Both the position numbers and the translations under genes were made by a program. A model generated the notes under the pieces. The model made no database searches. It was not told where the DNA came from and saw nothing but the letters and a program-made list of their open reading frames with translations. Source: Megasphaera sp. (GTDB taxonomy: Bacteria > Bacillota > Negativicutes > Veillonellales > Megasphaeraceae). From it: DNA of 64,000 bases. Of this stretch, positions 13,805 to 33,029 are shown one piece after another; the stretch's first letter is position 1, and every line of letters starts with the position of its first letter. The stretch is taken from the NCBI GenBank assembly GCA_022486585.1, contig JAKVKI010000001.1:1-64000 (forward strand). The letters run 5' to 3'.

Positions 13805-16800
13805 TTATTCTGTTACTTCTAACAAGCAGTCACCACTGATAATGGCTTGGCCTTTTGTTGCATAAATTTCACCAACAGTGCCATTGATAGGCGACGTAAT
13901 CGTCGTTTCCATCTTCATCGCTTCAGTAACAACGATAGGTTCGCCTTTTTTAACTTTCTGGCCCTTCGTCACCAACACATTGACGACAGTCCCTGACAAG
14001 GTCGCTCCAATGTCACCTAACTTATCCGGATCTGCTTTGCGTCGTGTAACAGTCTGCATATCGACACTCTTATCCTGTACCTGGATTTCACGTTCTGCAC
14101 CATTGAACATGAACGTAATGGTACGGATACCGCTGTCATCAGGATCACTGATGTTGATAAGCGTAATGATGAGGTCTTTCCCTTTTTCGATTTCTACGTG
14201 TACTTCTTCATTTTTCTTCATGCCGAAGAAGAATGTCGGCGTATCAAGAACGCTTACATCACCGTATTTTTTGACATTTTCATTGTAATCCTTGAATACC
14301 TTCGGATACTGGCAATATGCGTTGACATCTTCTGGTTCATGCAGATAACTGGCATCAGCCAATTTTTTACATACGCTGTCCAAATCGACTGGCGCAAGAC
14401 TCTTGCCCGGACGTTCTGTCAACGGCGCATTGCCCTTCAGGATGATCTTCTGCAATTTTTCCGGGAATCCCTGATACGGAATGCCAATACGGCCTTCAAA
14501 GAATTCAACAACGGATTGCGGGAAATCGAGGATATCGCCTTTTTCATAAATAGACTGTTCTGTCAAATCGTTTTGGATCATGAACAATGTCATGTCGCCA
14601 ACGACCTTCGAGGACGGTGTTACTTTGATGATATCGCCAAACATCATGCTGACCTGGTGATACATCTTCTTGATATCATTCCAGCGTTCGCCAAGGCCAA
14701 CGGCTTTTGCCTGCTGACGTAAATTAGAGAACTGGCCGCCTGGCATTTCATGCTGGTACACTTCCGTGTTTGGATATGGTTCTGCTTTATCGACGCCTTT
14801 GTAGTAAGGACGGACAGTTGCCCAATACCGGGACATTTCTTCCATAGCATTAATATCCATGTCAGGCTGACGGTCTTTACCACTTAGCGAGTACCATAAG
14901 GTGCTCATGCTGGGCTGGCTAGTACCACCGGCAAAGGCCGAGTATGCTACATCGACGATATCAGCACCGGCATCAATCGCCCGGTTCAACGAGCAAACAG
15001 CATTTCCTGAACCGTCATGCGTATGGACATGTACTGGCAGGCTGACTGCGTCTTTCAGTGCTGAGACTAAGCGATAGGCCGCTTCCGGTTTAAGAAGACC
15101 AGCCATATCTTTAATGGCGATAATATTCGCACCGGCATTCTTCAATTCCTTAGCCATATCAACATAGTATTTCAAATTATATTTCTGGCGAGAATCATCA
15201 AGGATATCGCCAGTATAGCACAAGGCCACTTCTGCGATCTTGCCGGTATCACGGACAGCCTGAACGGTACCGTACATATTGTCCAAGCTGTTCAGACTAT
15301 CAAAGACACGGAATACATCGATACCATTTTTAGCAGACAGATCGACAAAGTTTTTAACGACATTGTCTGGATAACTCGTATAGCCAACGGCATTTGCCCC
15401 GCGAATGAGCATCTGCAAAAGGATATTCGGAGCTAATTTACGCATCTGCCGCAACCGGATCCAAGGATCTTCATACAGGAAACGATAGGCTACATCAAAC
15501 GTAGCTCCGCCCCAGCATTCATAAGAGAAGAAATTAGGCAGTTTCTTAGAAGCCGTATCCAATACACGTAACATATCGATCGAGCGCACACGAGTCGCCA
15601 TGAGAGACTGATGAGCGTCACGCATAGTCGTATCTGTAAAGAAGACCTTCGGCTGTTCCATGACCCACTGGGAGAATTTATCCGGTCCCATTGCGTCAAA
15701 AATCTGTTTCGTTCCATCAGGATACGGTCCTGCTACGGATTCTGGGATTTCCAAGGGTTCAAAGGCAGGAAGATCCTGATGCCCTAACCCGGCATAGCCA
15801 TTGATCGTCGTGTCACCGATATACTTTAAGAGCTTCGTACCACGGTCCAATACGACAGGCAGATGGAACAATTCTGGATGATCGTCAATGAAATTGACAT
15901 TATACGAACCATCAATAAAGGACGGTGCCTGCAATACATTCGTAAGGAAACCAATATTGGTCTTGACGCCACGAATACGGAATTCTTTTAGGACACGAAT
16001 CATTTTTTGAACTGCTGCTTCATGGGTCAGGCCATAGGTCGTCGCCTTGACTAGCAAGGAGTCATAATACGGTGTAATAATAGCACCTGTATAGGCATTA
16101 CCACTATCGAGACGGACACCAAAACCGCCGCCGCTGCGGTATACATTGATCTTGCCGGAATCTGGCATGAAGTTGTTCATCGGGTCTTCCGTCGTAATAC
16201 GGCATTGGATCGCATTGCCGAGGCAATGTACATCGTCTTGAGACTTGATGCCGATTTCATCGCTATCGAGGGCATAGCCTTCAGCAACTTTTATCTGCGT
16301 CTGCACGATATCGATACCAGTAATCATTTCTGTAACGGTATGTTCTACTTGGACACGAGGATTTACTTCGATGAAATAGAATTTTCCATCCGGTGTGACC
16401 AAAAATTCGACTGTACCGGCATTGACGTATTTTACTTTCTTCATGAGCGTCAGTGCAGCATCGCAAATGTCCTGACGAATCTTTTTCGACAACGCAAAGG
16501 CCGGCGCGATTTCAACAACTTTCTGATGACGACGCTGAACAGAGCAATCCCGTTCAAACAGGTGAATGACATGGCCATGTTCATCGCCCATGATCTGTAC
16601 TTCAACGTGTTTCGGATTGATGATGCATTTTTCCAAATAGATTTCATCACTGCCAAAGGCAAGTTTTGCTTCTGATTTGGCACGATCGTAGGCATCACGC
16701 AAATCAGCCATATGGTCGACCATACGCATGCCTCTGCCACCACCGCCGTTAACGGCTTTCAGCATAATCGGGAATCCGACTTCCTTGGCAAATTTTTCGA

Positions 16801-17239
16801 CTTCGGCATAGTTCATGACCGGGCCGTCACTGCCAGGAATATATTGGATGCCCGCTTTATCCGCTTGGATACGGGCATTGATTTTATCACCGAACATAAT
16901 CAAATGTTCTACTTTAGGGCCGATGAAGATAATACCTTCTTCCTGGCAGCGTTTGGCCAAGTCAGCATTTTCTGACAAGAACCCATAGCCAGGATGGATA
17001 GCATCTACATCATGTTCATGGGCGATGCGGATAATATCTTCAATATCTAAATATGCATCGACCGGTTTCTTCCCTTTGCCTACCAAATAAGATTCGTCAG
17101 CACGGAAACGGTGCAATGACAATGCATCTTCTTTGGAGTAAATAGCCACTGTGCGGATTCCTAATTCATTACATGCACGGAAAACGCGAATAGCAATTTC
17201 ACCACGGTTTGCAACTAAAACCGAACGGATTTTTTTCAT
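13805..17239 (-). CDS. pyc: Pyruvate carboxylase
   Basis: This 1144-residue biotin enzyme converts pyruvate, bicarbonate and ATP to oxaloacetate. The order is complete: biotin carboxylase/ATP-grasp (about 4-455, with GGGGRGMRMV and EVNPRVQVEHTVTE), carboxyltransferase (about 530-800, DTTMRDAHQSLMATRVR, HVHTHDGSGN), the PC tetramerisation region, and a C-terminal biotinyl domain with AMKMET (Lys about 1109). Length is normal. It has its own promoter and terminator, and AGGAGGG before the start. Directly upstream on the same strand lies a second, biotin-less carboxyltransferase, so oxaloacetate made here may be that protein's substrate. Confidence 0.97.
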   Translation of the reverse strand: MKKIRSVLVANRGEIAIRVFRACNELGIRTVAIYSKEDALSLHRFRADESYLVGKGKKPVDAYLDIEDIIRIAHEHDVDAIHPGYGFLSENADLAKRCQEEGIIFIGPKVEHLIMFGDKINARIQADKAGIQYIPGSDGPVMNYAEVEKFAKEVGFPIMLKAVNGGGGRGMRMVDHMADLRDAYDRAKSEAKLAFGSDEIYLEKCIINPKHVEVQIMGDEHGHVIHLFERDCSVQRRHQKVVEIAPAFALSKKIRQDICDAALTLMKKVKYVNAGTVEFLVTPDGKFYFIEVNPRVQVEHTVTEMITGIDIVQTQIKVAEGYALDSDEIGIKSQDDVHCLGNAIQCRITTEDPMNNFMPDSGKINVYRSGGGFGVRLDSGNAYTGAIITPYYDSLLVKATTYGLTHEAAVQKMIRVLKEFRIRGVKTNIGFLTNVLQAPSFIDGSYNVNFIDDHPELFHLPVVLDRGTKLLKYIGDTTINGYAGLGHQDLPAFEPLEIPESVAGPYPDGTKQIFDAMGPDKFSQWVMEQPKVFFTDTTMRDAHQSLMATRVRSIDMLRVLDTASKKLPNFFSYECWGGATFDVAYRFLYEDPWIRLRQMRKLAPNILLQMLIRGANAVGYTSYPDNVVKNFVDLSAKNGIDVFRVFDSLNSLDNMYGTVQAVRDTGKIAEVALCYTGDILDDSRQKYNLKYYVDMAKELKNAGANIIAIKDMAGLLKPEAAYRLVSALKDAVSLPVHVHTHDGSGNAVCSLNRAIDAGADIVDVAYSAFAGGTSQPSMSTLWYSLSGKDRQPDMDINAMEEMSRYWATVRPYYKGVDKAEPYPNTEVYQHEMPGGQFSNLRQQAKAVGLGERWNDIKKMYHQVSMMFGDIIKVTPSSKVVGDMTLFMIQNDLTEQSIYEKGDILDFPQSVVEFFEGRIGIPYQGFPEKLQKIILKGNAPLTERPGKSLAPVDLDSVCKKLADASYLHEPEDVNAYCQYPKVFKDYNENVKKYGDVSVLDTPTFFFGMKKNEEVHVEIEKGKDLIITLINISDPDDSGIRTITFMFNGAEREIQVQDKSVDMQTVTRRKADPDKLGDIGATLSGTVVNVLVTKGQKVKKGEPIVVTEAMKMETTITSPINGTVGEIYATKGQAIISGDCLLEVTE

Positions 17240-17320: not shown

Positions 17321-17348
17321 ATTATACCAAAATAGCGAAACATTACAA
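17321..17348 (-). promoter_or_regulatory. Promoter of pyc
   Basis: On the minus strand TTGTAA (plus 17343-17348) and TATAAT (plus 17321-17326) are separated by 16 bases, about 80 bases before the pyc start. It lies in the 153-base gap after the carboxyltransferase gene. Confidence 0.55.
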
Positions 17349-17392: not shown

Positions 17393-18763
17393 TTACTGAT
17401 TGCTTGCCACCGTTTCTTTGCCTCTTCTTTTTTTGAAGAACGGCAGTGCCACTTCTGGGAATAAGGTATAACTCAATACATCTTCACGACTCGCATTGGG
17501 GAATCCTTCTTCGGCTAAGGCCTGGCGGGCTTTCTCTAATTCCGGTTTCAGGTCATCAGCCGGACGGTAATCGATGACTTTTTCATCACCAATACACATT
17601 TTACGGAAATCAGCACTGATCGTTCCGGGAACACGGCCATATTTACCTTGGACAATATCACGAACTTCATTTGTAATGATCTTATAGCGGCCATAAAGAA
17701 CATTAAGGGCCGCTTCAGACCCTGTAATCTGGCTGGTCGGTGTCACCAAAGGCGGATAGCCTAGATCACGGCGCACATTCGGCATTTCGGCTAATACATC
17801 ATCGAAGCGGTCTTCTGCGCCCTGTCCTTTGAGCTGATTGTACAAGTTGGTCAGCATGCCCCCTGGTATTTGATATTTCCGCACAGCCGGATTGATTTGA
17901 TCCGGCATCGTAAGCTGAAATTCATCAGATAATTCTTTACGGACTTTTTTAAAATGCTCCGTCAGCGGCCACAGCCGGTTCACGTCAATCCCTGTATCAT
18001 AAATACTGTTTTCCAGAGCCATGACCATGGTTTCTGTCGCCGGCTGGCTGGTTACTTCACCAAAAGGAGACAAGGCCGTATCAATGATATCGACGCCGGC
18101 TTCAATTGCCTTCATATAGGTCATTTCCCCAAACCCGCACGTACAATGCGTGTGCAATTCAATAGGGATGTGGAGATGCTTTTTCAGCATCCGTATCAAA
18201 TTATACGCATCATATGGCGATAAGAGGCCTGACATATCTTTGATACATAAGGAATCGACGCCCATGTCCTGTAATTCCAGGGCTCCTTTAGTAAAAGATT
18301 CCATCGTGTGAATCGGGCTGATCGTATAGACAATGGCCCCTTGGACTTTGACGCTCTTCGTATCTTTGGCGGCCCGGATTGCTGATTCCAAATTGCGCGA
18401 ATCATTAAGCGCATCAAATACCCGAATAATATCAATGCCGTTATCCACGGCACGATTGACGAATTCATATACTACATCGTCAGCATAATGACGATATCCT
18501 AAGATATTTTGGCCGCGAAACAACATTTGCAGCGGCGTCTTTTGGACATGCTTTTTTATGGTACGGAGCCGTTCCCACGGGTCTTCGTCAAGAAAACGCA
18601 TACACGTATCAAAGGTAGCGCCACCCCAGCATTCTAACGCATTGTATCCCACTTCATCCATAGCTTCCAAAACAGGAAGCATTTCGTTGAGACGCATGCG
18701 CGTAGCCGCAATGGACTGGTGGCCGTCGCGCAATACGGTTTCCGTTATTTTTACTCTTGCCAT
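17393..18763 (-). CDS. Carboxyltransferase of OadA / transcarboxylase 5S type, without biotin domain
   Basis: This 456-residue protein is a TIM-barrel carboxyltransferase: ETVLRDGHQSIAATRMR at 8-24, CIKDMSGLL with the carbamylated-type Lys175, and metal-binding HTH at 204-206 (ELHTHCTCG), followed by a PYC_OADA domain (about 290-440). There is no biotinyl domain: the protein ends in FFKKRRGKETVASNQ. It must therefore act on a separate biotin carrier, as oxaloacetate decarboxylase alpha or transcarboxylase 5S subunits without fused biotin do. No oadB, oadG or carrier gene is nearby. The promoter region carries a near-copy of the element found at fapR (18892-18913), which hints at a role in malonyl-CoA supply. 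Family assignment is firm; the partner and acceptor are not known. Confidence 0.8.
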   Translation of the reverse strand: MARVKITETVLRDGHQSIAATRMRLNEMLPVLEAMDEVGYNALECWGGATFDTCMRFLDEDPWERLRTIKKHVQKTPLQMLFRGQNILGYRHYADDVVYEFVNRAVDNGIDIIRVFDALNDSRNLESAIRAAKDTKSVKVQGAIVYTISPIHTMESFTKGALELQDMGVDSLCIKDMSGLLSPYDAYNLIRMLKKHLHIPIELHTHCTCGFGEMTYMKAIEAGVDIIDTALSPFGEVTSQPATETMVMALENSIYDTGIDVNRLWPLTEHFKKVRKELSDEFQLTMPDQINPAVRKYQIPGGMLTNLYNQLKGQGAEDRFDDVLAEMPNVRRDLGYPPLVTPTSQITGSEAALNVLYGRYKIITNEVRDIVQGKYGRVPGTISADFRKMCIGDEKVIDYRPADDLKPELEKARQALAEEGFPNASREDVLSYTLFPEVALPFFKKRRGKETVASNQ

Positions 18764-18891: not shown

Positions 18892-18913
18892 CTATTAGTA
18901 ATAGGTCATAATT
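18892..18913. promoter_or_regulatory. FapR-type operator candidate upstream of the carboxyltransferase gene
   Basis: The minus strand reads AATTATGACC, TAT, TACTAATAG. The element at fapR (33008-33029, plus strand) reads AATTATGACC, AAG, TACTAATAG: 20 of 22 positions agree. Here it starts 17 bases past the -10 TATAAT, at fapR 16 bases. Orientation relative to transcription is opposite, as allowed for an imperfect palindrome (ATTAGTA / ATTATGACC half sites). Confidence 0.6.
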
Positions 18914-18929
18914 TTATATACTATTTTAT

Positions 18930-18958
18930 ATTATATCATATTCGGGCAATATTAACAG
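18930..18958 (-). promoter_or_regulatory. Promoter of the carboxyltransferase gene
   Basis: TATAAT on the minus strand (plus 18930-18935) has a weak -35 CTGTTA (plus 18953-18958) 17 bases upstream. It is placed relative to the operator-like element just as the fapR promoter is. Confidence 0.45.
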
Positions 18959-19011: not shown

Positions 19012-19047
19012 AAAAAAATCAGCCGCCAAGTGTATTACCTGGCGGCT
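19012..19047 (-). terminator. Terminator after 4-hydroxybutyrate dehydrogenase
   Basis: AGCCGCCA (19021-19028) pairs with TGGCGGCT (19040-19047). On the minus strand the stem is followed by GA and seven T. Confidence 0.85.
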
Positions 19048-19070
19048 GACAGCTTACAGTTCTGCAACGC

Positions 19071-24280: not shown

Positions 24281-25324
24281 TCATTCATCTGGCATAAAAT
24301 GATATTCCATAGTCAGTTCAGAAGTCCCTACACGGATAGTGCCTGCAGGTAAGGAATTATCTTCGCGCCAGCAAATGGGAAAGGAATATTTCTTCTGTGC
24401 TTCATGCATGGTTTGTTTCCTGTACCCACGGACACGCGATGTATCTTTACGGTTATAGGAAATCGTAATATATCCCGGTCGTACTGCATCGAGAACAGCG
24501 AATATTTTTTTACGATAGCGCAATGCATCTGTCATTTCTCCCATAGCCGGCGTATACGCTCCGCCTAAGACCTGCGTATCATCATCAAGATCAGCTGTCG
24601 CCTGCAGGCCTGTACGGATGACCTGGATATGTGCTTCTATAAAAGCCTGCTTCATATACGCAGCTCTGCGGACACCTTCTTGCACCGTAAGCGGCGTATA
24701 TTTTCCCTCACGATACAACTGTGCCAATTCCGTATGTTCCAAAACCGCGACTGGATAAATACGCGCTATATCCGGATGAAGGCGGCATATAGCCGCCGTC
24801 GTCTTTTCCAAGCTAGGCCAGTCTTCGTCTGGCAGTCCCGGCATAAGCTGGTGTCCTACAATAAAGCCGCGGCTCCGCAACAGCGCCGTTGCAGCTTCTA
24901 CTTGAGATGCTGTATGTCCCCGTTTGGCCTTCGCCAAAACGGCGTCATCCATGGACTGGACACCGAGCTCAACAATAGTCACACCGTAATGGTCCAGTCG
25001 GTCCATTACGGTTCTATCGATGCAATCCGGGCGGGTCGAACAGCGGATACGCTGAATCAGTCCCGCTTCCAATGCTTTTTGCGCCGGCTCTAACAGTTTT
25101 TCCTGTAAAGCGGCTGGCACCGCTGTAAAGCTGCCACCGTAAAAGGCTATTTCCCAGTGCCGTTTTTCTTGAACGCCTCTGGTATAAGAAATGACCGCTT
25201 TTTGGATATCATCTGCTGAAGGAATACCGTGATGCCCTGTAATCTGCCATTGATTACAGAATACACAGCGATGGGGACAGCCAATATGGGGAATAAAAAT
25301 GGGGATAATCGATGTTTTTATCAT
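24281..25324 (-). CDS. Radical SAM protein, Elp3-like
   Basis: This 347-residue radical SAM enzyme carries the cluster motif CPHRCVFC near 16-23, FYGGSFTAVP and ELGVQSMDDAVLAKAKRGHT, in the arrangement of the Elp3/oxygen-independent coproporphyrinogen oxidase-like group. There is no acetyltransferase domain. The C-terminal part (GGAYTPAMGEMTDALRYR) matches a conserved bacterial family of unknown exact substrate. An ATG at 25396 is in frame but would start inside the rnc terminator, so 25324 is preferred. It sits between rnc and the lytTS genes. Confidence 0.75.
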   Translation of the reverse strand: MIKTSIIPIFIPHIGCPHRCVFCNQWQITGHHGIPSADDIQKAVISYTRGVQEKRHWEIAFYGGSFTAVPAALQEKLLEPAQKALEAGLIQRIRCSTRPDCIDRTVMDRLDHYGVTIVELGVQSMDDAVLAKAKRGHTASQVEAATALLRSRGFIVGHQLMPGLPDEDWPSLEKTTAAICRLHPDIARIYPVAVLEHTELAQLYREGKYTPLTVQEGVRRAAYMKQAFIEAHIQVIRTGLQATADLDDDTQVLGGAYTPAMGEMTDALRYRKKIFAVLDAVRPGYITISYNRKDTSRVRGYRKQTMHEAQKKYSFPICWREDNSLPAGTIRVGTSELTMEYHFMPDE

Positions 25325-25354
25325 AGTTACGACCGTTCTTTTATTAATAGCTGC

Positions 25355-25387
25355 TAAAAAAGGATGCGGCAAAGCCGCATCCTTTTT
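25355..25387 (-). terminator. Terminator overlapping the rnc stop codon
   Basis: AAAAGGATGCGGC, TTT, GCCGCATCCTTTTTT on the minus strand. The 5' arm of the stem includes part of the rnc stop codon. It ends the fatty-acid operon. Confidence 0.8.
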
Positions 25388-26096
25388 ATATAGCATGTAA
25401 ATGCATCAATGCTTCATGAGCAGCATGCTGCTCTGCATCTTTTTTTGTTTTGCCAGCACCTTCACCTAAGACGCTGCCATTGACAATGACTTCCATATAA
25501 AAAGTCTTATCATGGTCTGGCCCTTCTTGCCGGCATAATTGATATGCAATAATATGCTCGCCATCGCGTTGAATAAATTCCTGAAACAGTGTTTTATAGT
25601 CTTTGCCGTAGTCGCCTTTAGCAACTAGTTCTAAATATCCTTTGAGCTGATGCAAAATAAACTTGCGGGCTTCTTCATACGTTGAATCAATATAAATAGC
25701 TCCAACAACTGCTTCAAAAGCATCTGCCATGATACTGGCTCTGGTTCTTCCTCCAGAAGCCAGTTCACCTTTCCCTAATAAAATATATTCACCCATGTGG
25801 AAAGACGCACATACAGCTGCTAGCGGCGTTTCACTGACTACACTGGCTCTTGCTTTGGATAATTCACCTTCAGGCATATGCGGATATTGGAGAAATAAAT
25901 ATTCACCAACAACTAAATCTAAAATAGCATCGCCTAAAAATTCTAATCGTTCATTATAAAAACCATGTTTGCCTTTATTTTCATTAGCGTAGGACGAATG
26001 GGTCAATGCCTTATCTAAGATAGACAATTGATGGAATTGTTCTAAGCCGAGTATACTGATAAATTTTTCTAATTGTTCTTTTCTTAGCCTATCCAT
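25386..26096 (-). CDS. rnc: Ribonuclease III
   Basis: This 236-residue enzyme cleaves double-stranded RNA such as rRNA precursors. It has the RNase III signature NERLEFLGDAILDL near 45-58, the second acidic site DAFEAVVGAIYID near 120, and a C-terminal dsRNA-binding domain (about 160-232, with GKTKKDAEQHAAHEALMHL). It is the last gene of the fab operon, 16 bases after fabF, an arrangement common in Firmicutes. Confidence 0.96.
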   Translation of the reverse strand: MDRLRKEQLEKFISILGLEQFHQLSILDKALTHSSYANENKGKHGFYNERLEFLGDAILDLVVGEYLFLQYPHMPEGELSKARASVVSETPLAAVCASFHMGEYILLGKGELASGGRTRASIMADAFEAVVGAIYIDSTYEEARKFILHQLKGYLELVAKGDYGKDYKTLFQEFIQRDGEHIIAYQLCRQEGPDHDKTFYMEVIVNGSVLGEGAGKTKKDAEQHAAHEALMHLHAI

Positions 26097-26112: not shown

Positions 26113-27366
26113 TTATCCTTTGTACTTCTTAAACAACAAGGTAGCATTATGTCCACCAAAACCGAAGGAGTTTGAAATAGCTACGTTGATATCTGCTTCG
26201 ACGGCTTTATTAGGTACATAGTTAAGGCCTAATTCCTTCAATTCATCATCTGGTTGGACAAAATTGATTGTCGGATGAACTTTCCCTGTTTCGATTGTCA
26301 ACGCACAGGCAATCGCTTCAACAGCACCAGCAGCACCCAGAAGGTGACCTGTCATGGATTTAGTCGAACTGATGAGCAAGTCTTTAGCATGATCACCAAA
26401 AATACGAGCGATTGCTTTCGATTCATTTAAATCATTCAAATGAGTCGATGTACCGTGCGCATTGATATAATCAACGTCTTCGGTCTTCATGCCGGCATCA
26501 TCGATAGCCAGTTTCATGCATTTTGACTGCTGGATTCCTTCCGGTGCCGGAGCTGTAATATGATAGGCATCGGCATTACTGCCATAGCCGCCAACTTCAC
26601 AGTAAATATGAGCACCGCGTTTTTTTGCATGTTCTAATTCTTCAAGAAGGACAATGCCAGCACCTTCACCCATAACAAAGCCATCACGGTCTTTATCAAA
26701 GGGACGGGATGCATGTTCCGGATCATCATTCCGCGTACTGAGAGCCTTCATAGCAGCAAATCCGGCAACGGCTCCCGGTGAAACGGCGGCTTCTGTGCCA
26801 CCGGCAACAGCAGCGTCTAATTCTCCACGCTGGATCATGCGATAGGCATCACCAATCGAATTCGTACCAGTAGCGCAAGCTGTAACAACGCTGGCGCAAT
26901 GGCCTTGCAGGCCAAAGACGATAGAAACCTGGCCAGAAGCCATGTTAGCAATCATTTTCGGTACGACGAAGGGATTAACACGGGACGGTCCTTTAGAAAA
27001 CAATCCTTTATACAAATTATGGAGTGTTTCCATGCCGCCGATACCTGTGCCAATAATAGTACCAATACGGTCGCGATCTTCTTCGTCCAAATTGATTTTG
27101 GAATCATCTAATGCCAGTTTTGCTGCAGCAACAGAATATTGCGTAGATGGATCCATATGACGCGCTTCTTTTCTATCAATGCCATAGTCACTGGGATCAA
27201 AATCTTTTACTTCACCAGCAATGCGTGCTGAATATTCTGTCGCATCAAAATGGGTGATCGGGCCGATACCGTTCGTTCCGCTGAGTAATGCGTTCCAATA
27301 GGCTTCCTTACCAGTTCCTACTGGCGATATAACGCCTAACCCTGTAATTACTACACGTTTTTCCAA
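26113..27366 (-). CDS. fabF: Beta-ketoacyl-ACP synthase II
   Basis: This 417-residue condensing enzyme elongates acyl-ACP with malonyl-ACP. The catalytic Cys-His-His set is visible: VTACATG, NAHGTSTHLND and TGHLLGAAGA. The most upstream in-frame codon is GTG at 27375, but that GTG is itself part of the GAGGTGA ribosome-binding site. TTG at 27366, six bases after it, gives the usual N-terminus LEKRVVITGLG, so it is chosen. It follows fabK in the operon. Confidence 0.95.
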   Translation of the reverse strand: MEKRVVITGLGVISPVGTGKEAYWNALLSGTNGIGPITHFDATEYSARIAGEVKDFDPSDYGIDRKEARHMDPSTQYSVAAAKLALDDSKINLDEEDRDRIGTIIGTGIGGMETLHNLYKGLFSKGPSRVNPFVVPKMIANMASGQVSIVFGLQGHCASVVTACATGTNSIGDAYRMIQRGELDAAVAGGTEAAVSPGAVAGFAAMKALSTRNDDPEHASRPFDKDRDGFVMGEGAGIVLLEELEHAKKRGAHIYCEVGGYGSNADAYHITAPAPEGIQQSKCMKLAIDDAGMKTEDVDYINAHGTSTHLNDLNESKAIARIFGDHAKDLLISSTKSMTGHLLGAAGAVEAIACALTIETGKVHPTINFVQPDDELKELGLNYVPNKAVEADINVAISNSFGFGGHNATLLFKKYKG

Positions 27367-27395
27367 AGTTTTCACCTCATCTAAAAATCAAACCG

Positions 27396-28352
27396 TTAGT
27401 CGGGAATTGCGTCCATTTCCCGTTTCAGATATGCAAATATGTCTTTTACCGACAAAATATCATGGATTTCCTGCATACGTCTGCCAGCAAATACAAGTCC
27501 TGTTTCGACATCGCCTTGCTGTGCCCGCGTAAGGGCCCGGATGATGCAGTATTTATGGCTGCATTTCTTCAGACAGTGGTCACACGTGACCGGTTTCGGG
27601 GCTGTCCCCAACAGGATGCGTTCCGAAAACGGTGTACGAATAGCCTGGCCTGGCAGCCCTACAGGACTGTGAACCAAAATATAATCTTCTGGAGCGTTAG
27701 CCCGCAGATATACTTTTTTTAATTCTTCAGAGCCGTTCGATTCTACACTGGCAGCAAAACGGCTGCCCATTTGGACACCATTAGCACCCAGGCGGAGCAT
27801 TTCAGCAATATCTTCGCCATGAAGTATACCACCAGCACCGATTACGGGAATATCAACAGCCGCCCGCACTTCCGGCACAATAATCCGGCTGGAGCGATTT
27901 GTTCCCAGATGCCCGCCTGCTTCCGCGCCTTCAACGACGACAGCAGAAGCACCCAGGGTTTGGGATATTTTAGCTAGTTTAGCAGAAGAGACTATGGGCA
28001 CAATAGGCGTGCCGCTTTCTTTCCCCCAGGCGAACATATCCCGGGAGAAGCCTGCTCCTGCTACAACCAGATCGATTCCTTCTTCAATAGCAGTAGTTAC
28101 AATCCCCTTAAATTCACGGGCTGCAACCATTATATTTATACCTATGACACCATTAGGAGCTAATTTCTTAGCCAAACGGATTTCATCTCGTAATTCATCG
28201 AAGGCCATGCCCGATGCCGCAATAAGACCAATACCACCTTCATTGGCCACGGCTGCTGCCAACCGGGCTGTGGACAAACGTATTGCCATGCCGCCCTGAA
28301 TAATTGGCACTTTTACAACAAGCTTACCTATCTTTAATTCTGGCAGCTTCAC
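27396..28352 (-). CDS. fabK: Enoyl-ACP reductase II (FMN type)
   Basis: This 318-residue flavoprotein of the nitronate monooxygenase/FabK family carries out the last reduction of fatty-acid elongation. It has IIQGGMAIRLS near 17, VVEGAEAGGHLG, GAGGI and the FabK-like GVQMGSRF. The C-terminal region has a Cys-rich segment (CDHCLKKCSHKYC). An ATG at 28367 is in frame, but GGAGG lies eight bases before the GTG at 28352, which is chosen. No fabI or fabL is in the operon, so FabK is probably the main enoyl reductase. Confidence 0.88.
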   Translation of the reverse strand: MKLPELKIGKLVVKVPIIQGGMAIRLSTARLAAAVANEGGIGLIAASGMAFDELRDEIRLAKKLAPNGVIGINIMVAAREFKGIVTTAIEEGIDLVVAGAGFSRDMFAWGKESGTPIVPIVSSAKLAKISQTLGASAVVVEGAEAGGHLGTNRSSRIIVPEVRAAVDIPVIGAGGILHGEDIAEMLRLGANGVQMGSRFAASVESNGSEELKKVYLRANAPEDYILVHSPVGLPGQAIRTPFSERILLGTAPKPVTCDHCLKKCSHKYCIIRALTRAQQGDVETGLVFAGRRMQEIHDILSVKDIFAYLKREMDAIPD

Positions 28353-28434
28353 TGTGTTTTCCTCCATTCAAGATACCATTGAGGGAAGACGATGCACCTT
28401 GCACAGCCTTCCCTGTCTGGTTCTTATTGCGTAC

Positions 28435-28680
28435 TTACGCCTTTTTTTCCTTTTCAATGTAATCAACTGTATCTTTAACAGTTTTAATTTTTTCTGCAAC
28501 ATCATCAGGGATTTCAATATTGAATTCTTCTTCGAAAGCCATGATCAGTTCAACAATATCCAAGGAATCAGCGCCTAAATCATCAATGTAAGCAGCGTCC
28601 ATTTTGACTTCTTTTTCGTCAACACCTAACTGTTCTACGACAATGCTCTTAACTTTTTCAAAAGTAGCGTCTTCGCTCAT
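28435..28680 (-). CDS. acpP: Acyl carrier protein
   Basis: This 81-residue acidic protein carries growing acyl chains on a phosphopantetheine arm attached to Ser39 in [11 protein letters not shown]. Length and charge are typical. The start has GGGGGTGA upstream. It lies between fabG and fabK. It also supplies acyl-ACP donors to LpxA and to the lipid A acyltransferases encoded in the same window. Confidence 0.97.
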
Positions 28681-28716
28681 TTCCGTTCACCCCCTTTCAG
28701 TATAGTATACCTTTAT

Positions 28717-29460
28717 TTACATTACCATGCCACCGTCAACGTTGAGAACTTGGCCGGTAATATAGCTTGCATGATCCGACACGAGGAAAAGTACCGCTTG
28801 GGCAACTTCTTCCGGCCGGGCTACGCGCCCCATAGGAATGGTTTGTTTCATTGCGTCAATGGCATCTTGTCCAAGGACAGATGTCATTTCTGTATCGATA
28901 CATCCCGGTGCTACTGCATTGGCACGAATGTTACGAGACGATAATTCCTTTGCTACGGATTTTGTCAGTCCAATAAGACCTGCTTTAGCCGCTGCATAAT
29001 TCGCCTGACCTGCATTTCCTGTCAATCCGACAACCGAAGAAATATTGACGATAGCACCACACCGCTGTTTCATCATGAATTTTGATACGGCCTTGATGCA
29101 GTGAAAAGCCCCTGTCAGATTGGTATTCATAACAGCCTGCCAGTCTTCTTCTTTCATACGCATAATAATGTTATCACGCGTAATACCAGCATTATTAACT
29201 AGTATATCGACAGATCCAAATTGTTCCTTAACCGCTTTGACCATCGCTGTAACTGCAGCATCATCAGCAACATCACACTGAATTGCTGTACAAGTACCGC
29301 CGTTATCAGTGATACACTGTACGGTCTCTTCAGCTGCCTGTGTATTACCAGCATAGATGATTGCCACGCTGGCGCCTTCATTGGCAAGCGTAATAGCTGT
29401 CGCCCGTCCGATACCACGGGAACCACCCGTAACGATCGCCGTTTTACCTGTTAAAAGCAT
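28717..29460 (-). CDS. fabG: 3-oxoacyl-ACP reductase
   Basis: This 247-residue short-chain dehydrogenase reduces 3-oxoacyl-ACP with NADPH. It shows the Rossmann motif TGGSRGIGRATAI, NNAG (about 88-91), the catalytic Ser of NISSVVG and YAAAKAG. An upstream in-frame ATG at 29487 overlaps fabD; the ATG at 29460 has AGGGGG nine bases before it and lies one base after the fabD stop, so it is chosen. Confidence 0.96.
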   Translation of the reverse strand: MLLTGKTAIVTGGSRGIGRATAITLANEGASVAIIYAGNTQAAEETVQCITDNGGTCTAIQCDVADDAAVTAMVKAVKEQFGSVDILVNNAGITRDNIIMRMKEEDWQAVMNTNLTGAFHCIKAVSKFMMKQRCGAIVNISSVVGLTGNAGQANYAAAKAGLIGLTKSVAKELSSRNIRANAVAPGCIDTEMTSVLGQDAIDAMKQTIPMGRVARPEEVAQAVLFLVSDHASYITGQVLNVDGGMVM

Positions 29461-29461
29461 T

Positions 29462-30403
29462 TTATCGAACCCCCTGGAAAAATTCAAGTGTTTTCTTCAA
29501 CGAAGATATATCTTCTACGTTTTCACTATGTATTTTTCTATCTATTTTACGGTTAAATCCACAAAGGGTTTTACCCGGACCGACTTCTACAAATGCTTCA
29601 GCCCCGAACGCCTGCATCGTCTTCGTGCATGCCACCCAAAGAACCGGGCTAGCTGCTTGTTTGACCAGGGATGCTTTGATATCATTTGCTGACCGTTCAA
29701 TTTCACCGTTCACATTAGCTACGACAGGAATAGCCGCATCAGCAATAGGTATGCTGTCAAGGACTTCTGCTAATCGCTTCGCTGCCGGTTCCATTAACGT
29801 ACTGTGGAATGGTGCACTAACATGGAGCATGATCGCTCGTTTTGCACCAGCAGCTTTCATTGCATCGGCTGCTGTTTCGACGGCTTTCGTACTGCCGGCA
29901 ATGACGATTTGGCCAGGGCAATTGAAATTAACTGCCTGGACTACACCACCTTGAGCCGTTACTTCAGCACAAATGGCTTTGATCTTATCTTCGTCGAGAC
30001 CAAGAATAGCTGCCATAGCGCCTTCGCCGATAGGAACAGCTTCTTGCATGAACTGGCCACGGAGACGTACTGTTCGAACGGCATCAGCAAAGGTAAGCGA
30101 ACCTGCTGCTACTAACGCCGAATATTCACCAAGGCTGTGCCCGCCAGCAATATCTGGTGTCAGTCCTTCCTGTGCAAGGACACGGCAGCACGCCGTACTG
30201 GCTGTAAGAATAGCCGGCTGTGTGTTTGCCGTCTTCATCAATTCTTCATCCGGCCCTTCAAAGATCAGCTTTGTCAGGGAAAAACCAAGGGAATCATCCG
30301 CTTCTTCAAACAATTCCCGAACAACAGCATAGGCGTCATATAAATCTTTGACCATGCCTACTTTCTGTGCGCCTTGTCCAGGAAAAACAAATGCTGTTTT
30401 CAT
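29462..30403 (-). CDS. fabD: Malonyl-CoA:ACP transacylase
   Basis: This 313-residue enzyme moves malonyl from CoA to ACP. It has FVFPGQGAQKVGMV at the N-terminus, the nucleophile Ser in GHSLGEYSALV near 90, and the active-site His region HVSAPFHSTLM near 200. Upstream ATG codons at 30409 and 30487 are in frame, but GAGG lies ten bases before 30403, which also gives the usual family N-terminus. It consumes malonyl-CoA, the FapR ligand. Confidence 0.95.
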   Translation of the reverse strand: MKTAFVFPGQGAQKVGMVKDLYDAYAVVRELFEEADDSLGFSLTKLIFEGPDEELMKTANTQPAILTASTACCRVLAQEGLTPDIAGGHSLGEYSALVAAGSLTFADAVRTVRLRGQFMQEAVPIGEGAMAAILGLDEDKIKAICAEVTAQGGVVQAVNFNCPGQIVIAGSTKAVETAADAMKAAGAKRAIMLHVSAPFHSTLMEPAAKRLAEVLDSIPIADAAIPVVANVNGEIERSANDIKASLVKQAASPVLWVACTKTMQAFGAEAFVEVGPGKTLCGFNRKIDRKIHSENVEDISSLKKTLEFFQGVR

Positions 30404-30426
30404 ATCCATATCACCTCGTCGGATTC

Positions 30427-31422
30427 CTAATACCATTTCATGACCAGGCTGGACCATGTGAGTCCTGCACCAAAGCCATCTAAACATACGATATCATCAC
30501 GGTGTATCATGCCGTTGCGATTCGCTTCATCCAAGGCGATAGGAATCGATGCCCCTGATGTATTGGCATACCGTTCAATATTGACATAAACTTTATCCAT
30601 CGGAATATGAAGCCGTTTAGCTGCTGACTGGATAATGCGGATATTGGCTTGATGAGGTACTAACACATCGATATCTGCCGTCGTCAAATCAGAGCGTTTA
30701 AGTGCTAATTTAGCCGCCTTCGGCATAGCATTGACAGCAAATTTATATACTTCTTTGCCATCCATTTTGGCATAGGCCATACCATTTTCACGAAGAGCAT
30801 CTGTCGGTGGCATTTCTACGCCGCTAGCCGGGATCGTTAAATAATCACCGCCAGTACCATCAGCACCCATAGCGCCACCAAGAATACCATATCCTTCCGG
30901 TACGCGGCCAATAACGGCTGCACCAGCACCGTCTCCGAAAAGGATGCAGGAACTACGGTCTTTCCAATTAATAACACGCGTAAGGACTTCGGCACCAATG
31001 ACCAATATTTTATCATAAAATCCATTTTCAATATACTGCGCAGCTGTGATTGCTCCATAGACAAAGCCGGAACAAGCAGCCGCTAAGTCAAAGGCTGCTG
31101 CATTAACAGCACCCAAGTTAGCCTGGACTTTACATGATGAAGCTGGTAATGCACGGTCTGGTGTCAGTGTCGCCAAAATGATCAAATCTAATTCTTCCGG
31201 CTTGACATGCGCCATTTCCATCGCTTGTTTGGCCGCCTCTGTAGCCATTTCCGTCGTGTTGATTCCTTTAGGAGCTACATGACGGGCACCGATTCCTGTA
31301 CGGCTGCGGATCCATTCATCAGATGTATCCATCATTTTTTCTAAATCTTTATTTGTCCACACTTGTTCCGGTGCATAATGGCCGGTTCCCAATATTCCTG
31401 CCGGATTAGCTTTCACTATCAT
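30427..31422 (-). CDS. fabH: Beta-ketoacyl-ACP synthase III
   Basis: This 331-residue enzyme starts fatty-acid synthesis by condensing acyl-CoA with malonyl-ACP. The Cys-His-Asn triad is visible in AAACSGFVYGA near 112, VPHQANIRI near 248 and NTSGASIP near 278. Its start overlaps the plsX stop by 17 bases, consistent with coupled translation. Confidence 0.96.
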   Translation of the reverse strand: MIVKANPAGILGTGHYAPEQVWTNKDLEKMMDTSDEWIRSRTGIGARHVAPKGINTTEMATEAAKQAMEMAHVKPEELDLIILATLTPDRALPASSCKVQANLGAVNAAAFDLAAACSGFVYGAITAAQYIENGFYDKILVIGAEVLTRVINWKDRSSCILFGDGAGAAVIGRVPEGYGILGGAMGADGTGGDYLTIPASGVEMPPTDALRENGMAYAKMDGKEVYKFAVNAMPKAAKLALKRSDLTTADIDVLVPHQANIRIIQSAAKRLHIPMDKVYVNIERYANTSGASIPIALDEANRNGMIHRDDIVCLDGFGAGLTWSSLVMKWY

Positions 31423-32434
31423 ATTGTTCTACCTCTTCTTCTTCAATACTAGCACGGATATGACCAACCACATCTTGCTGAACTAATTCTCCGGCAACAC
31501 GGATAGCATTCTTTATAGCCTTGGCTTTAGAACTGCCATGACAAATAATGAAACTGCCGTTTACGCCTAATAATGGCGCACCACCGTATTCCGTAAAGTC
31601 CAATCGTTTTTTTAATATTTTTAAAGCAGGATATACGGCAATAGCCCCTAATTTAGCGATAAATCCGCTCTGATGGATGGTATCTTTGACCAGCCGAATG
31701 ATAAACAGGGCCATGCCTTCTCCAAACTTCAAAATGACATTGCCAACAAATCCATCACAGACAACGACATCTACGGTACCTTTAGGAATATCCCGGCCTT
31801 CAACATTACCATAAAAGGAAATAGTCTTCAGCTTTTGAAGCAACGGATACGTCGCTTGGGACAATTCATTGCCCTTGGACGCTTCTTCACCTATATTAAG
31901 CAAACCAACCTTCGGTTTGTCGATTCCCAAGATATATTTTGCATAGTGGGAACCCATGATGGCTCCTTCTACTAAGTGCTTAGGTTTACTATTGGAATTG
32001 GCACCGGAATCTAAAAGTACGGTAATTCCCTTTTTTGAAGGGATTGGCGTTGCAATACAAGGTCTGTCAATTCCTTTGATACGGCCTAATCCAAACAAGG
32101 CTGCTGTCACTGCTGCTCCAGTACTGCCAGCCGCTACGACGGCATCACACTTGCCTTCTTTTGCCAGGCGCGTCGCCACTACGATAGATGCGTCTTTTTT
32201 CTTACGGATCGCCTGAGCCGGATGTTCGCTCATATCAATAACTTCACTGGCATGAACAACGGACAACCGCGGAGTTTTTTCACCACCGTACTGTCTCAGA
32301 ACTTCCCGTATTTGTTTTTCGTCACCTACTAAGGCGACTTCCAGATCATCGTATGCCTTTACAGCTTCGATGGCACCGAGAACGATTTCCTCCGGCGCAT
32401 AATCGCCGCCCATAGCATCTACAGCTATTTTCAT
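31406..32434 (-). CDS. plsX: Phosphate acyltransferase PlsX
   Basis: This 342-residue enzyme turns acyl-ACP into acyl-phosphate for glycerolipid synthesis. It has KIAVDAMGGDYAPEE at the N-terminus, AAGSTGA near 95 and LLDSGANSNSKPKHLV near 145. An ATG at 32449 overlaps the fapR stop (TAATG), but GGAG nine bases before 32434 supports the shorter form. FapR-PlsX-Fab gene order is the classical Firmicute arrangement. Confidence 0.95.
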   Translation of the reverse strand: MKIAVDAMGGDYAPEEIVLGAIEAVKAYDDLEVALVGDEKQIREVLRQYGGEKTPRLSVVHASEVIDMSEHPAQAIRKKKDASIVVATRLAKEGKCDAVVAAGSTGAAVTAALFGLGRIKGIDRPCIATPIPSKKGITVLLDSGANSNSKPKHLVEGAIMGSHYAKYILGIDKPKVGLLNIGEEASKGNELSQATYPLLQKLKTISFYGNVEGRDIPKGTVDVVVCDGFVGNVILKFGEGMALFIIRLVKDTIHQSGFIAKLGAIAVYPALKILKKRLDFTEYGGAPLLGVNGSFIICHGSSKAKAIKNAIRVAGELVQQDVVGHIRASIEEEEVEQYDSES

Positions 32435-32448
32435 ACAATACCGCTCCA

Positions 32449-32991
32449 TTATTCCAAAGATTCTATAATAAATTTAGCGCGAAATACTTCTTTCGCGTTT
32501 TTCCGTATTTTCACCCATACATAATACTTTTGGTCACGCTGGCGGACGACCTCCGCTTTTGCAACGAGCTTATCACCAACGGTGACAGGCTGTTTATATT
32601 TAATATTGGCCACAGCCGTAATGGCGACCGGCAGATTGAGTACAGCCCGGGTCAGTGAATCTGCCTGCGCGTATAAACAACGGGATCGGACAATATGGGC
32701 TGTATCGACCATTTCTTCTGTTGCCGTTAATATAGATATAGCACTTTTACCGACTGTACAATCCACGAGTTCTCCGAAAACATCTGCCCGGCTTGGCTTT
32801 GGCTGTGCTGCCTCGGCCTTCTGTTTTATGCGGATGCGCATTTCCGGTATCCCTAACGCAAGGCGATCCAACCGAATAGTCGCTACACTGACAGAAAATT
32901 CTTCAGCAAGCTCTTCATCGTTGATAAAAGGATTTTCTCCTATACGTTTACGTAACATCGTATGCCGTTTTTCTCTCGCTATACGAACCAT
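32449..32991 (-). CDS. fapR: Fatty-acid and phospholipid biosynthesis regulator FapR
   Basis: This 180-residue repressor is released from DNA by malonyl-CoA or malonyl-ACP. It has an N-terminal DeoR-like helix-turn-helix (about 8-50, NDEELAEEFSVSVATIRLDRLALGI) and a C-terminal hot-dog thioesterase-fold domain (about 70-175, DTAHIVRSRCLYAQADSL). The start has AAGGTGAT. It is the first gene of the fab operon, and the operator-like element 17-38 bases upstream of its start suggests autoregulation. A near-copy of that element stands before the carboxyltransferase gene at 18 kb. Confidence 0.93.
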   Translation of the reverse strand: MVRIAREKRHTMLRKRIGENPFINDEELAEEFSVSVATIRLDRLALGIPEMRIRIKQKAEAAQPKPSRADVFGELVDCTVGKSAISILTATEEMVDTAHIVRSRCLYAQADSLTRAVLNLPVAITAVANIKYKQPVTVGDKLVAKAEVVRQRDQKYYVWVKIRKNAKEVFRAKFIIESLE

Positions 32992-33007: not shown

Positions 33008-33029
33008 AATTATGACCAAGTACTAATAG
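33008..33029. promoter_or_regulatory. FapR-type operator at fapR
   Basis: The plus strand reads AATTATGACC, AAG, TACTAATAG. TTAGTAC-type half sites are those known for FapR in Bacillus (from memory); the second half (ATTATGACC) is degenerate. The element starts 16 bases past the -10 box, so a bound repressor would block early transcription. Confidence 0.6.

Follow-up and report, generated by a model that had tools for sequence, protein, structure and literature searches.

The stretch of DNA analysed here, the first 64,000 nucleotides of a Megasphaera sp. contig and referred to throughout as the window, carries on its minus strand a gene for a carboxyltransferase (CT), a pyruvate carboxylase gene downstream of it and the fapR gene, which is the first gene of a plsX-fabH-fabD-fabG-acpP-fabK-fabF-rnc cluster (Table 1). 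The repressor gene was assigned as fapR by the curated model NF003359, and the names of the genes in the fab cluster were taken from established families. A FapR-type operator is present both at CT and in front of fapR. Since a strong intrinsic terminator of the upstream gene precedes the CT promoter, the operator at CT stands at the start of the transcription unit. For the pyruvate carboxylase gene, a separate promoter-like sequence lies at 17321-17348.

Table 1. Features of the CT and fapR-fab regions, with positions given in window coordinates.
Feature	Position	Strand	Remarks
Full-length pyruvate carboxylase (BC-CT-BCCP)	13805..17239	-	PRK12999, 1745 bits
CT, 456-aa 5S/OadA/PycB-type carboxyltransferase without biotin domain	17393..18763	-	PF00682 and PF02436
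FapR-type operator of CT	18892..18913	-	20/22 identical to the fapR operator; 17-base core 18895-18911
Extended -10 box TGATATAAT of the CT promoter	18930..18938	-	Sequence reading; TGnTATAAT kept before CT in aligned relatives
Intrinsic terminator between the upstream dehydrogenase gene and the CT promoter	19018..19050	-	14-pair stem followed by a T run
rnc and Elp3-like radical SAM gene, end of the fab cluster	24281..26096	-	In the M. elsdenii clade CT comes directly after
plsX-fabH-fabD-fabG-acpP-fabK-fabF, malonyl-CoA-consuming FASII genes	26113..32449	-	Reading frames; served as queries for orthologous operons
fapR, repressor of fatty acid synthesis genes	32449..32991	-	NF003359, 194.1 bits (cut-off 183)
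FapR operator of the fapR-fab operon	33008..33029	-	Core 33010-33026; kept in 15/17 family genomes

The first-pass annotation of this DNA had claimed that a 22-base element is common to the fapR and CT promoters and starts 16-17 bases past a TATAAT box. Both parts of this claim hold: the plus-strand sequence of the CT operator (ctattagtaataggtcataatt) agrees at 20 of 22 positions with the reverse complement of the fapR operator (ctattagtacttggtcataatt), and the spacing of 16-17 bases downstream of TATAAT is seen at CT and at fapR. Relative to transcription, the CT operator is inverted with respect to that of fapR, which is without consequence because the operator is near-palindromic. Within the window, a 21-base pattern searched with up to three mismatches matches these two sites only, and 100 dinucleotide shuffles of the window gave an expectation of 0 matches. 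Across the 1.9 Mb genome, the 17-base core with zero or one mismatch is likewise restricted to the CT and fapR sites. When as many as three mismatches are allowed, the number of genomic matches rises to 11, as compared to 17 for the reversed control, which is the level of background. The additional hits with two or three mismatches (e.g. C32:20261 and C35:5914) do not show clear conservation and were dismissed as chance. In another genome (G015), a chance match to the motif (L118) falls within a probable CRISPR array with the repeat CTGCCGAATAGGCAGTTTAGAAA. In addition, FapR-like sites occur in two Megasphaera species between genes for a chloride channel and a peptidoglycan-binding protein, beside glmU (position 1501 of L119 and L120).

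The annotation had staked its proposal on the recurrence of the operator upstream of orthologous genes in relatives. A site precedes fapR nearly throughout the Megasphaeraceae (Table 1). Before CT, a class-wide matrix finds the site significant in seven of 15 genomes (p <= 0.01). A genus matrix backs one more (G028) and possibly another (G020), so that the operator recurs clearly at CT in 8-9 of 15 relatives overall. The shared FapR-type operator is real and conserved. Five CT promoters lack a clear FapR site. CT directly follows fabF-rnc in four of the genomes without a clear site, and it is placed directly after fabF-rnc-elp3 in the M. elsdenii clade, where the clear site is missing; M. hutchinsoni combines the site with this placement, and G025 has neither a CT site nor a CT placed after the fab cluster. 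FapR sites were sought and not found before the CT gene of Veillonella, nor before 12S-type (mmdA) or biotin-carrier genes of Megasphaeraceae. Outside the Negativicutes, a FapR-like site (TTAATACTTGGTCTTAT, 13.2 bits) was observed 75 bases upstream of a CT homolog in Thermoanaerobacterium butyriciformans (L043).

The nearest solved relatives of CT are 5ks8 (pyruvate carboxylase beta subunit), 2nx9 (OadA) and 1rqb (transcarboxylase 5S). Its motifs VLRDGHQS, IKDM and LHTHC, which we take to be the metal and lysine site of 5S-type carboxyltransferases, align with both 5S and OadA. The protein falls short of the curated thresholds that define the oadA, 5S and stand-alone pycB equivalogs, with 663 bits against TIGR01108 (oadA, cut-off 756.5) and 535 bits against NF008984 (5S, cut-off 827). 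The similarity to OadA would fit an alpha subunit of a sodium-pumping oxaloacetate decarboxylase, a role that is extremely improbable given that the score stays under the oadA cut-off and that a gene for OadB/MmdB (PF03977, OAD_beta) is missing from all 17 Megasphaeraceae genomes, several of which consist of one or two contigs. PF03977 is present in most genomes of other Veillonellales families. Exclusive function of CT with a sodium-pumping OadB had been named as an outcome that would speak against the annotation; for Megasphaeraceae such a partner is already refuted, unless the beta subunit has another fold.

Acetyl-CoA carboxylase, a target for antibacterials, is regarded as nearly universal among bacteria with fatty acid synthesis. 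With E. coli AccA as control (493 bits), no true AccA was detected in 250 Negativicutes genomes, the best score seen being 62 bits. One PF01039 gene, which is MmdA-like, is present in 60 of 61 Veillonellales genomes, the exception being one fragmented assembly, and a PF03255 search in this order returned no gene beyond it. Neither AccA nor AccD, the subunits by which an acetyl-CoA carboxylase would be recognized, was found in Veillonellales. A stand-alone AccC is limited to 4 of 17 Megasphaeraceae genomes, and pyruvate carboxylase is the sole biotin carboxylase found in the other 13, including the genome of the window, which accordingly does not contain the AccC partner of a PccB-type acyl-CoA carboxylase. 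In the four genomes, accB-accC adjoin pxpB-pxpC-like genes (L210-L213), an arrangement that suggests a biotin-dependent 5-oxoproline cluster, and AccC was rejected as a general partner on account of this company. Among the 250 Negativicutes genomes, 55 contain no biotin carboxylase domain.

Megasphaeraceae retain mmdA-mmdD-mmdC without mmdB and apart from propionate genes. The window genome holds a 12S-type acyl-CoA carboxyltransferase and a stand-alone biotin carrier with an EAMKM motif, and this MmdC, located next to MmdA, is the only carrier of its kind seen there. As AccA, AccD and OadB are missing and AccC is scarce, what remains for making malonyl-CoA is CT, MmdC, MmdA and pyruvate carboxylase. 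At the D422 position, which tunes PCC/ACC specificity, MmdA of the window genome carries Ile, the residue present in an acetyl-CoA-accepting enzyme of S. coelicolor (PMC7835884). This residue would be compatible with acetyl-CoA, yet it is not diagnostic, since true methylmalonyl-CoA decarboxylases have Leu or Ile instead of Asp at this position.

The most likely interpretation, with a probability of roughly 0.65, is that CT belongs to the FapR regulon and serves as the donor half of a malonyl-CoA-forming transcarboxylase. In this scheme, CT would transfer the carboxyl group of oxaloacetate to the MmdC-like carrier, releasing pyruvate, and the MmdA-like subunit would pass it from the carboxybiotin-carrier to acetyl-CoA, yielding malonyl-CoA for FASII. 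Oxaloacetate could be provided by pyruvate carboxylase or other anaplerotic enzymes. A transcarboxylase-like route had been proposed in the first-pass annotation "instead of, or beside" acetyl-CoA carboxylase. The two operators, their conservation and the gene content, with AccA/AccD and OadB absent and AccC scarce, argue for it, and the lack of AccA/AccD in Veillonellales favors "instead of", which is stronger than what was claimed. We infer that CT, MmdC and MmdA act together, which acyl-CoA they use and that FapR binds the operators; judged from the genes present, the pathway appears well supported, yet it is unproven. Against it speak the mmdA genes of Megasphaeraceae and the CT of Veillonella, which lack a FapR site, the five CT promoters without a clear one, the apparent lack of CT in Dialister-type genomes, the altered ligand pocket of FapR and the positive feedback that relief by malonyl-CoA would create. 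The neighboring pyruvate carboxylase gene, formerly taken as a functional link, adjoins CT only in the window genome and its closest relative, and this adjacency was discarded as evidence because it is not conserved.

CT might instead act in pyruvate/oxaloacetate balance, through soluble oxaloacetate decarboxylation or pyruvate carboxylation, with FapR co-regulation merely matching acetyl-CoA supply. Elsewhere in bacteria, members of the CT family are indeed subunits of oxaloacetate decarboxylase or pyruvate carboxylase. However, CT has no biotin domain, the one stand-alone carrier seen in the window genome sits beside MmdA, and the cell would be left without a source of malonyl-CoA, making this role improbable.

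Further genomes of the class bear on the proposed transcarboxylase; here, the designations Dialister-type and Selenomonas-type follow kinship and named relatives. Three Dialister-type genomes (G001, G002 and G004) possess FASII and are devoid of OadB, AccC and CT. A FapR operator precedes mmdA in all three, scoring 15.6-17.8 bits in comparison to 13.4-21.9 for the sites of fapR itself, and 0 of 200 shuffles scored as well. The suggestion that 12S-type or biotin-carrier genes might also carry the motif is thereby upheld for mmdA in these genomes, but not in Megasphaeraceae. No FapR site was found before mmdA of OadB-bearing relatives in two families (f2 and f3), where the gene sits in a propionate operon. 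As Dialister-type genomes apparently do without CT, pyruvate carboxylase by itself may suffice to charge the carrier. This leads to another reading: full-length pyruvate carboxylase would load the MmdC-like carrier in trans through its biotin carboxylase (or CT) domain, acetyl-CoA would then be carboxylated by MmdA, and the separate CT would be auxiliary or anaplerotic. The three genomes, in which mmdA is under FapR control and pyruvate carboxylase is the only donor seen, favor this arrangement, as does the position of pyruvate carboxylase beside CT in the window genome. It is nevertheless unlikely: it leaves both the FapR control of CT and the joining of CT to the fab cluster unexplained, the adjacency is not conserved, and a Selenomonas-type genome contains no pyruvate carboxylase at all. 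This genome (G104) encodes the full fapR-plsX-fab operon, CT, MmdA, MmdC and OadB, and no AccA and no pyruvate carboxylase, AccC or other biotin carboxylase was found in it (about 2.0 of the 2.07 Mb contig were read and the rest was covered by domain search). Since no biotin carboxylase is present, malonyl-CoA could be formed in a G104-like genome only by transcarboxylation or by a sodium pump run backwards. Malonyl-CoA from a different source, be it malonate import and ligation or an unrecognized carboxylase with the CT/Mmd parts unrelated, is very unlikely for Megasphaera: its genome has a single carboxyl-transferase-domain gene, hence no recognizable malonate decarboxylase of that family, and the FapR sites point to CT and, in Dialister-type genomes, to mmdA.

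Extended to the class, the proposed transcarboxylase gives a broader picture whose chances we consider evenly balanced: all Negativicutes would lack acetyl-CoA carboxylase and make malonyl-CoA by oxaloacetate:acetyl-CoA transcarboxylation, some species without any biotin carboxylase, and FapR, its ligand changed in Veillonellales, would govern the CT half in Megasphaera and the MmdA half in Dialister relatives. Searches of an open-access library yielded no report of a missing acetyl-CoA carboxylase or of transcarboxylation to malonyl-CoA in Negativicutes. If true, a class of bacteria common in the gut and mouth would obtain malonyl-CoA from oxaloacetate without acetyl-CoA carboxylase, lipid synthesis would be tied to the supply of oxaloacetate and biotin carrier, insensitivity to acetyl-CoA carboxylase inhibitors is predicted, and metabolic engineers would gain an ATP-free malonyl-CoA enzyme. 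The shift in the FapR-controlled subunit, CT versus MmdA, makes the idea directly testable.

In S. aureus FapR, malonate is held by Arg110, Gly111 and Asn119, and bases are read by Gln41 and Arg56 (PMC3536700). Judged from the window protein and the FapR orthologs L187-L209, the malonate-binding residues are altered throughout Veillonellales: the pocket reads R-S-D in the window genome and Arg/Lys/Gln-Ser-variable in Megasphaeraceae, and the Arg110 position is occupied by Glu or Asp (f4) or by Pro (f2 and f3) in three other families. FapR proteins of other Negativicutes retain Arg or Lys, Gly and Asn. The Gln41 position is Ala, Pro or Gly in Veillonellales, with Ala in the Megasphaera protein. 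Because of this divergence, malonyl-CoA sensing by Megasphaera FapR is uncertain, and the ligand may have changed in Veillonellales. A FapR that is relieved by malonyl-CoA and represses malonyl-CoA supply would create positive feedback; as a conjecture, a changed ligand would remove this paradox. In the Bacillus/Staphylococcus regulon, operators also lie just downstream of promoters and fapR-plsX-fab genes are controlled, yet the acc genes of B. subtilis are outside the FapR regulon (PMC5052256), whereas in Megasphaera the presumed malonyl-CoA supply is inside and FapR has the altered base-reading and malonate-binding residues.

The proposed system resembles the methylmalonyl-CoA:pyruvate transcarboxylase of Propionibacterium (12S, 1.3S and 5S) in combining an acyl-CoA carboxyltransferase, a small biotin carrier and a 5S-type keto-acid carboxyltransferase, and in not requiring a biotin carboxylase. 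The Propionibacterium 5S subunit (1rqb) aligns with Megasphaera CT over 449 residues, and the 12S subunit (1on3) aligns with MmdA. In contrast to that enzyme, the Megasphaera system is proposed to move the carboxyl group of oxaloacetate to acetyl-CoA, to serve fatty acid synthesis and to be controlled by FapR; it also retains a membrane-anchored MmdD-like protein, and its CT does not reach the 5S equivalog cut-off. Homologous MmdA, MmdD/E-like and MmdC proteins, with conserved gene order, are shared with the methylmalonyl-CoA decarboxylase of Veillonella (MmdADECB), but Megasphaera lacks the MmdB sodium pump and the propionate-pathway neighbors. Its scores are also lower, with MmdA at 883 of the cut-off of 999 (an MmdA of the Veillonella family reaches 998), MmdC at 137 of 200 and MmdD at 29 of 150. 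With canonical AccABCD, the proposed system would have in common the product, malonyl-CoA for FASII, the difference being that no true AccA is found in the 250 class genomes, no AccA/AccD in Veillonellales and no AccC in most Megasphaeraceae. In further support of the proposed system, MmdA-like, carrier and CT genes stand side by side at 17 loci of Oscillospiraceae, the carrier being unrecognized at some, and the CT proteins of these loci group in one part of the tree. One of them (L070:2993-6395) brings together an MmdA-like protein (about 440-570 aa in such loci), a biotin carrier and a 5S-like CT, and similar loci are L051, L064, L069, L071-L074, L077, L080, L081, L083-L085, L089, L091 and L095. 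Judged by gene arrangement, these loci look like a self-contained transcarboxylase operon.
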